From the NCBI GenBank assembly GCA_903884375.1, contig CAISER010000008.1, positions 1-38,429 of the forward strand: a stretch of DNA of 38,429 bases, written 5' to 3'. Position 1 is the stretch's first letter, and the number at the start of each line of letters is the position of its first letter. The position numbers and the translations under genes are program-made. Of the stretch, positions 29,219-31,072 are shown piece after piece. The stretch comes from Candidatus Collierbacteria bacterium (GTDB lineage Bacteria > Patescibacteriota > Microgenomatia > UBA1400 > MFAQ01). Under the pieces are notes generated by a model, which saw nothing but the letters and a program-made list of their open reading frames with translations, was not told where the DNA came from and searched no databases.

Positions 29219-30901
29219 ATGAAAAGTGTCATCTTGTGCAGGGTTTCTAGTAAAGAACAAGAAGAAACTGGCTATTCTTTAAGTGCGCAAGAAAAATTCC
29301 TGAACTCATACCGAGAAAAACAAGGTTTTCAGTTAGTAAAACTATTCTCTATCTCAGAATCAGCAAGTGGTAAAAAACAAAGAGCGTTATTTGACCAAAT
29401 GTTAAGTTTTGTTAAGTCCAATGAGATCAAAATCATTATTTGTGAAAAAGTCGATAGACTTACCAGAAACTTCAAAGACATGGTCATGATTGATGACTGG
29501 CTTGAGGGAGACGAAAACCGACAAGTTCATTTAGTCAAGGATTCTTTGATAATGCACAAAAACTCTCGTTCTCAAGAAAAACTCAACTGGGGTATCCGCA
29601 TTCTGTTTGCCAAAAATTATGTCGACAACTTGTCTGAGGAGGTTAAAAAGGGTCAAAAAGAAAAGATTTCTCAAGGTTGGTTACCAACAAAACCACCTCC
29701 AGGATACAAAACCATTGGAGAAAGCGGGCGTAAAGAACATGTCATTGATGATAAAAGATCCAGCCTCATCAAACGGATGTTCAATCTTTATGCTTCAGGA
29801 GATTACTCCATTATCCGTCTTACAAAAGTGATGTATCAAGAAGGACTAAGAACAGATACAGGAAACAAAGTTCAAAAAAGCAGAATCGGTTCCCTACTCT
29901 CAAATCCTTTTTATATTGGAAAAATCTATTGGAATAATCAAATATATGATGGCAAACAAGAAGGTTTGATTAGTGATGAAACTTTTAACAGAGTTCAGAG
30001 AGTCTTAAAAGGAAAAAATACACCCAAATACAGTAAACATGAGTACCAATTTAAGGGTCTTATTAGGTGTAAGGAATGTAAGGGAGTCATTACTTGGGAA
30101 ACTCATAAAGGAATAACCTACGGACATTGCAATCATTACAGAAACTGCACGCAAAACATTTGGGCAAAGGAAAAAGAAACAGAAAACACAATCGTCGAAG
30201 GTCTAAACAAACTCAAATTAAATAGCCCAAAACTTACAGAATGGATTAGAAAAGCCCTCAAAGAGAGCCATCAAACTGAAGTTGAATATCATCAGTCAAC
30301 CCAAGCCGAACTCAAACAACATTACGACCAGATACAAAATAGACTCGATCGCCTTTTTGACGAAAAGCTGGACGGAAATCTTGAAGATTCCTTCTACAAA
30401 CGAAAACTAGAGCAATATACTCAAGAAAAAGAAAATATTCTTAAAACAATAAAGAATCACTCAGATTCCTCAAATAACTACCGCCAAAAATGTCTCGAAA
30501 CATATGACCTTGCACAAAACGCCGGTATTTCATTCACTAACGGCAGTCCAGAACAAAAACATGAACTAATAAATCTGGTGTTTGAAAATTTAATACTCGA
30601 CCAAGGAAAGCTAAACTACACCTACACAAAACCCTTTGATTTGTTATTTAAGGCTGTCCAAGCCACAAACAGTTCGAAAGACGCAAAAACAACTCCACAA
30701 GACACAATTACTTTCGAACTCGGAAAAAAGACTGATGAATCAAACACAAATGGTCAAATATTACCTATTCGACCTACCTGGCTCCCCCGCGTGGGCTCGA
30801 ACCACGGACATCCTCCTTACAAGTGCCCTCAACTTTCGAAGAGGCTTGGACTATCTTATCTCCTTCGTTTGATATCTTCAAAGAAGGGGTCAGGCGTATA
30901 G
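29219..30901 (+). CDS. large serine recombinase (integrase)
   Basis: A 560-residue serine integrase. The N-terminal resolvase domain has the nucleophile in CRVSSKEQ (Ser near residue 10) and the arginine block VDRLTRN. The Recombinase domain follows (about residues 150-255), then a zinc ribbon (CKECKGVI...HCNHYRNC, about 284-309) and a coiled-coil region (about 345-425). It inserts or excises the element. The last 41 codons are antisense to the 3' exon and intron of the tRNA-Asn gene, so these residues (from WLPRVGSNHG onward) come from host DNA. The original C-terminus was therefore different. Confidence 0.93.
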   Translation: MKSVILCRVSSKEQEETGYSLSAQEKFLNSYREKQGFQLVKLFSISESASGKKQRALFDQMLSFVKSNEIKIIICEKVDRLTRNFKDMVMIDDWLEGDENRQVHLVKDSLIMHKNSRSQEKLNWGIRILFAKNYVDNLSEEVKKGQKEKISQGWLPTKPPPGYKTIGESGRKEHVIDDKRSSLIKRMFNLYASGDYSIIRLTKVMYQEGLRTDTGNKVQKSRIGSLLSNPFYIGKIYWNNQIYDGKQEGLISDETFNRVQRVLKGKNTPKYSKHEYQFKGLIRCKECKGVITWETHKGITYGHCNHYRNCTQNIWAKEKETENTIVEGLNKLKLNSPKLTEWIRKALKESHQTEVEYHQSTQAELKQHYDQIQNRLDRLFDEKLDGNLEDSFYKRKLEQYTQEKENILKTIKNHSDSSNNYRQKCLETYDLAQNAGISFTNGSPEQKHELINLVFENLILDQGKLNYTYTKPFDLLFKAVQATNSSKDAKTTPQDTITFELGKKTDESNTNGQILPIRPTWLPRVGSNHGHPPYKCPQLSKRLGLSYLLRLISSKKGSGV

Positions 30902-31072
30902 TCTCTGAACCTTCAATCCGTCCATGAGACGGAAAGCTTGGCTGCGGATTACCATGACCTTTCGGCCAACAGGCTTCCCGACAATTAACCCGATTTTCCA
31001 CCCAAAATTTCTTCTGGGCGCTGCAAGTTTACGTATTACAGGGAGGCGCTCTACCAACTGAGCTACAGGGGA
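30779..31072 (-). tRNA. tRNA-Asn(GUU), interrupted by a group I intron
   Basis: The 5' exon is 31038-31072 and the 3' exon 30779-30819. Joined, they give a 76-nt tRNA with a 7-bp acceptor stem (TCCCCTG/CGGGGGA), D arm GCTC-GAGC, anticodon stem CCTCC/GGAGG, loop CTGTTAA (anticodon GTT), T arm CGTGG-TTCGAGC-CCACG, discriminator G and an encoded CCA. The split lies between U35 and U36. Neither half alone gives a proper anticodon loop. The serine recombinase gene runs into its 3' end, which is the likely integration site. Confidence 0.88.
30820..31037 (-). ncRNA. group I intron in tRNA-Asn (IC3-like), 218 nt, no ORF
   Basis: The core segments are visible on the minus strand: GTTCAGAGACTATACG (R) and AAGATAGTCC (S), whose GACTAT and ATAGTC form P7; AATCCGCAGCC (Q); AATTGTCGGGAAGCC (P). 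The exon end CTGU pairs with GCAG of the guide sequence to give P1 with the required U-G at the 5' splice site. The intron ends with G. A P9 hairpin CCTC...GAGG precedes the end. There is no homing endonuclease. Confidence 0.88.

Follow-up and report, generated by a model that had tools for sequence, protein, structure and literature searches.

A group I intron, very probably an endonuclease-free member of a mobile family, in the sole tRNA-Asn gene detected in a Collierbacteria-related member of the Patescibacteria

The group I introns of Azoarcus tRNA-Ile(CAU) and of cyanobacterial and plastid tRNA-Leu(UAA) belong to group IC3, are ∼200–300 nt long, and sit in the tRNA anticodon loop. They have a P1–P9 layout, a U-G pair in P1, a terminal G, and a P7 helix built on GACUA/UAGUC. 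These features are common to the intron described here, which we take to be IC3-like given its resemblance to the tRNA introns of Azoarcus and Anabaena, but its host is tRNA-Asn and it lies between U35 and U36. Another point of reference is the intron of Synechocystis tRNA-fMet, with the endonuclease I-Ssp6803I (PD-(D/E)XK type). As we propose for the tRNA-Asn family, it is mobile, sits in the anticodon loop, and has an endonuclease gene in some members. However, by our own placements it occupies position 33/34 rather than 35/36, and the frames found in the tRNA-Asn family are of the HNH type.

Passages in a review devoted to bacterial group I introns (PMC3984707) and in the tRNAscan-SE 2.0 paper (PMC8450103) give tRNA-Leu, fMet, Ile2, and similar tRNAs as hosts, and a study of cyanobacterial tRNAs adds Arg, Gly, and Lys (PMC5733544). 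For circularized CPR genomes, a passage in one paper notes group I introns in some of the tRNAs, which are hard to detect; the passage names no tRNA, site, or endonuclease (PMC8172020). Group I introns are common in CPR 16S and 23S rRNA, according to a study in which tRNA is not treated (PMC11270868). These share the host phylum and Rfam family of the intron described here but differ in being hosted by rRNA. A 2018 survey of archaea reported group I introns in rRNA only (PMC6125680). Among open-licence papers, we found no description of a group I intron in a bacterial tRNA-Asn gene (a subscription paper could exist). A preliminary description of this DNA considered the host unusual, which holds for the published host lists that we reached (tRNA-Leu, fMet, Ile2, Arg, and a few others) but not for genomes, in which the site is common. 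The family to which the intron belongs is widespread and, to our knowledge, undescribed; within it, this intron is ordinary.

The stretch analyzed (hereafter, the window) comprises 38,429 nt and is contig 8 of a metagenome-derived draft genome (0.81 Mb, 43 contigs, 97.28% complete). The tRNA-Asn(GUU) gene lies on the minus strand (31072–30779), with an intron of 218 nt between U35 and U36 (Table 1). ARAGORN, when introns are allowed, calls it as tRNA-Asn(gtt) with the intron at position 36; without the intron option, the split gene is not called. The intron starts with AATACG and ends with CACTTG, and the exons, once joined, give a 76-nt tRNA-Asn cloverleaf in which every stem position is paired and the CCA is encoded. 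Judged by the ARAGORN call and the fold of the joined exons, the coordinates given in the preliminary description (30779–31072) are exact to the base. Its reading of the locus as tRNA-Asn(GUU) split at U35/U36 by a 218-nt group I intron is borne out by the ARAGORN split and by a match to Rfam family RF00028. Of the other features that it listed, the P7 pairing is present (as GACTA/TAGTC), and so are the terminal G and the P1 U-G pair.

Table 1. Features of the split tRNA-Asn gene, in window positions
Feature	Position	Strand	Basis or remark
tRNA-Asn(GUU) 5′ exon, nt 1–35, 35 nt	31038..31072	-	Ends C32-U33-G34-U35 (CCTGT)
Group I intron, 218 nt, without endonuclease ORF	30820..31037	-	RF00028; ends from ARAGORN and empty sites L044, L040
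Guide (IGS) GCAG, forms P1 with exon CUGU, U35 opposite G	31021..31024	-	Sequence
P2 hairpin	31001..31018	-	7 of 7 pairs changed on both sides, 26 introns
P3 5′ strand UCGGGU; 3′ strand 30890–30895	30988..30993	-	3 of 6 pairs changed on both sides; 95% of cells paired
P4 5′ strand; 3′ strand 30943–30948	30977..30983	-	C-G to G-C exchange in 12 of 26
P5 and GAAA-capped P5a	30951..30974	-	Sequence; P5 in pair count, outermost weak
P6 and P6a	30909..30942	-	P6a, both-side changes in 7 of 7 pairs; P6, in one pair
P7 5′ strand GACUA; 3′ strand UAGUC 30849–30853; guanosine-binding helix	30899..30903	-	Invariant in 26 of 26 introns
P8 hairpin	30860..30889	-	6 of 7 pairs changed on both sides in homologs; one mismatch in window copy
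P9 hairpin	30827..30844	-	Pair count in 26-intron alignment
P9.0 5′ side AA, pairs with UU 30821–30822 beside terminal G 30820	30846..30847	-	P9.0 comparison, 119 introns
tRNA-Asn 3′ exon, U36 through encoded CCA	30779..30819	-	Begins TAAGG; ARAGORN, spliced-exon fold

The RF00028 match scores 69.1 bits (cut-off 50; E 1.1e-15) and covers all 253 model positions. Rfam places the 5′ end of the intron upstream of its true start, within the leader and 5′ exon, and we rejected this placement; the real P1 consists of exon CUGU and intron GCAG. Minimum-energy folding gives a value only modestly below that of shuffled sequences (z −2.26), which is weak alone and was left out of the evidence. The strong evidence for group I identity is the covariance-model score together with comparative covariation. 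The latter was evaluated by following 48 named pairs from P2 to P9 in an alignment that runs from the guide to the terminal G and contains the window intron plus 25 introns of Patescibacteria, Nitrospirota, Deltaproteobacteria, Bdellovibrionota, Omnitrophota, and Bipolaricaulota. Across these 26 introns, 87.9% of cells are paired and 30 of the 48 pairs have changed on both sides. The covariation score is 0.468; shuffling lowers it to 0.177, with none of 500 shuffles reaching the observed value, and sliding the register lowers it to 0.137 or less. It should be noted that P7, being invariant, contributes no covariation signal either way.

The 3′ splice site has separate support from covariation of P9.0. 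Its second pair is present in 97% of 119 introns, compared with 43% on average after shuffling, and A-U, C-G, U-A, and G-C are all common. The guide GCAG is found no more than 54 nt from the 5′ splice site in all 75 introns shorter than 400 nt at the tRNA-Asn site. The splice-site rules (exon end UGU, U-G pair, terminal G) are kept in 121 of 123 tRNA-Asn intron calls, the exceptions being two 42-nt archaeal introns (see below).

In the splicing scheme that we propose, the precursor would be transcribed and the intron would fold, with the guide GCAG pairing with exon CUGU. Bound guanosine would then cut after U35, and the 3′ end would be fixed by P9.0 and the terminal G. Joining of U35 to U36 would restore the anticodon GUU. 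The window intron can probably carry this out by self-splicing. A different possibility, which we consider unlikely, is that it is group I by descent yet can no longer splice on its own and depends in the cell on a helper protein. Many group I introns do need protein cofactors, the window copy has the P8 mismatch, and by-eye inspection of this copy found no convincing P10 pairing between the guide region and the 3′ exon. However, the core pairs of P3, P4, P6, P7, and P9.0 are intact in the window copy, and short IC3-like bacterial tRNA introns (e.g., those of Azoarcus and Anabaena) self-splice in vitro.

A search of the host genome (G000) with the whole precursor gave one match, and neither a second nor an intronless tRNA-Asn was found in this 97% complete assembly; the remaining tRNA genes examined there have anticodons other than GUU. 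Given that the assembly is incomplete and in 43 contigs, a second tRNA-Asn could be missing from it, in which case the split gene might be a silent pseudogene alongside an intact copy. We regard this as very improbable, because the exons are fully paired with the CCA encoded, and the intron retains its core pairs and follows the splice-site rules. Also, the complete genome of Nitrospira moscoviensis, a cultured nitrite oxidizer (L264, NZ_CP011801), likewise has a single tRNA-Asn, split by the same intron. We are confident that what interrupts the only tRNA-Asn gene detectable in this Collierbacteria-related member of the Patescibacteria is an endonuclease-free copy of a group I (IC3-like) intron from a mobile family.

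Other introns were noticed in the same genome. A second tRNA group I intron (L001/L302; G000:C24:3831-4019, minus strand) lies between U33 and C34 of a gene resembling initiator tRNA-fMet(CAU). Once spliced, this tRNA would have an unusual T loop (AGCGTGA); we saw no further initiator-like tRNA in the genome. In addition, a group I intron match in the 16S rRNA (L003; G000:C24:50717-50850) is located beside a LAGLIDADG-like endonuclease frame.

Both empty and filled tRNA-Asn sites occur in near relatives. Intact, intronless tRNA-Asn genes were found in one genome of the same genus (G001, L044) and one of the same family (G014, L040), in each case next to the thymidine kinase gene that also neighbors the window copy, and these empty sites define the exact joint, CCCTGT followed by TAAGGAGG. 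The same-genus genome has other group I introns, none of them in tRNA-Asn. Three same-family genomes of “Candidatus Collierbacteria” (G002, G011, G015) do have the intron, in the same neighborhood as in the window; thus, its presence among near relatives is patchy. Because the window is a contig from a draft metagenome, one might suspect an assembly or binning artifact, but these three Collierbacteria genomes (L211, L223, and L232, corresponding to G002, G015, and G011) are independent assemblies with the same intron at 65–82% identity in this neighborhood, and we see practically no chance that the locus is artifactual.

The gene converging on tRNA-Asn in the window encodes a large serine recombinase (560 aa, Resolvase and Recombinase domains; 29219–30901, plus strand). 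The two are arranged tail to tail, and the recombinase frame continues antisense through the tRNA-Asn 3′ exon and into the intron. Homologs of the recombinase abut tRNA-Asn in G002, G014, G035, and probably G005. This adjacency, seen both with and without the intron, suggests an integration site at the 3′ end of tRNA-Asn.

To place the intron in its phylum, we sampled 380 genomes of Patescibacteria, 177 of which have RF00028 matches. Flanks were examined for the best matches listed (147 loci, three of them from the host genome), and ARAGORN found an intron-bearing tRNA at 90 of these; the other loci are mostly in rRNA or not resolved to a host. Among the resolved loci, tRNA-Asn is the commonest tRNA host, with U35/U36 introns at 54 loci in 54 different genomes, i.e., in at least 54 of 380 (14%, about one in seven). 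This is a lower bound because only the best RF00028 matches were examined.

Some of the tRNA calls required correction. ARAGORN classified 23 genes of the phylum sample as tRNA-Thr(UGU) with an intron at 33. We reject this assignment and read them as tRNA-Asn split at 35/36, because all have the U1 and G73 of tRNA-Asn and a guide that pairs with CUGU. The calls for L108, L111, L112, and L166 were wrong ARAGORN splits of tRNA-Asn and were likewise corrected. Several “Leu” or “Ser” calls resemble CAU-anticodon tRNAs split at 33/34, and these were left out of the tRNA-Asn count. Another frequent tRNA host in Patescibacteria, the second, is tRNA-Phe(GAA), split by group I introns in a way that is consistent with U33/G34 (L065, L073, L078, L083, L089, L121, L130, L134, L146, L176, L177, L179).

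A broad scan of 84,980 species genomes, with the tRNA-Asn 5′ exon followed by A as the query, returned 79 stretches, most of which are tRNA-Asn with the same intron. The carriers include many Nitrospirota (N. moscoviensis among them), Deltaproteobacteria, Omnitrophota, Bipolaricaulota, Bdellovibrionota, and Marinimicrobia, and seven records of DPANN archaea with the intron at U35/U36 (L247, L276, L208, L221, L227, L256, L272). Archaeal introns over the Rfam cut-off are those of L247 (84 bits) and L276 (63 bits). Just upstream of the latter is a gene for a “universal archaeal KH domain protein,” and L276 is thus no bacterial contaminant. The two 42-nt archaeal introns do not follow the U-G and terminal-G rules, and L237, the one of the two that was tested, has no group I match. 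These short introns from the same scan differ from the window intron, and this bears on whether the latter could be a protein-spliced bulge-helix-bulge intron of the archaeal/eukaryotic type, as its location in the tRNA anticodon loop might lead one to ask. We give that identity essentially no credence: it is refuted by the 218-nt group I core (69 bits), and the intron does not lie at 37/38, the typical position.

The 121 tRNA-Asn introns fall into 75 of 187–389 nt and 46 of 423–626 nt. All 46 introns of at least 400 nt include related HNH-endonuclease frames (several truncated), located in the P1 loop, where they lie between the 5′ splice site and the guide, close to the former. Thus, although the preliminary description was correct that the window copy has no endonuclease, other introns at the same site do carry an endonuclease gene, and we infer that the window copy lost its gene rather than never had one. 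When one member (L038) was compared with Pfam PF01844, the HNH frame matched with E 8.7e-4, slightly under the curated cut-off. In the PDB, the only credible relative of the HNH protein is a group II intron maturase chain, of which just the C-terminal part is matched (6me0, E 6e-6).

In one genome (G279, L095), an intron that shares the guide GCAG interrupts a tRNA-Asp(GUC) gene, again after U35. This intron probably represents a jump from tRNA-Asn, and the case suggests that the guide sets the site. In a quickly built tree of intron cores, 56 of 112 branches are weak and resolution is poor. However, its well-supported branches force several changes of host group, and intron transfer between phyla is therefore likely on this phylogenetic evidence. 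Host groups change 18 times on the tree, relative to a minimum of 5, and none of 200 shuffles was as low, indicating that the introns are clustered by host group but with transfers.

The HNH frames, the patchy presence, the occurrence of the guide in tRNA-Asp as well, and the intermixed host groups together point to a mobile family of group I introns that would target the conserved CUGU/UAA anticodon loop, with predicted homing and endonuclease activity. The HNH endonuclease of other members would cut intronless tRNA-Asn genes, and the intron would then be copied into them. The target loop, CUGUUAA, is identical in both domains, which would explain movement across the bacteria–archaea divide. 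On balance, we favor the view that U35/U36 of tRNA-Asn is the home of an undescribed mobile group I intron/HNH family that crosses both phyla and this divide, archaeal tRNA genes included.

Given that tRNA-Asn is essential and usually single-copy, the cells that bear the intron would all depend on the ribozyme. The split gene escapes standard tRNA finders, so many genomes of Patescibacteria, Nitrospira, and DPANN archaea would seem to be without tRNA-Asn. With a target that is identical in both domains and an HNH frame in more than one-third of copies, the family would provide a clean natural system for intron homing between distant lineages, for which N. moscoviensis is a culturable carrier.
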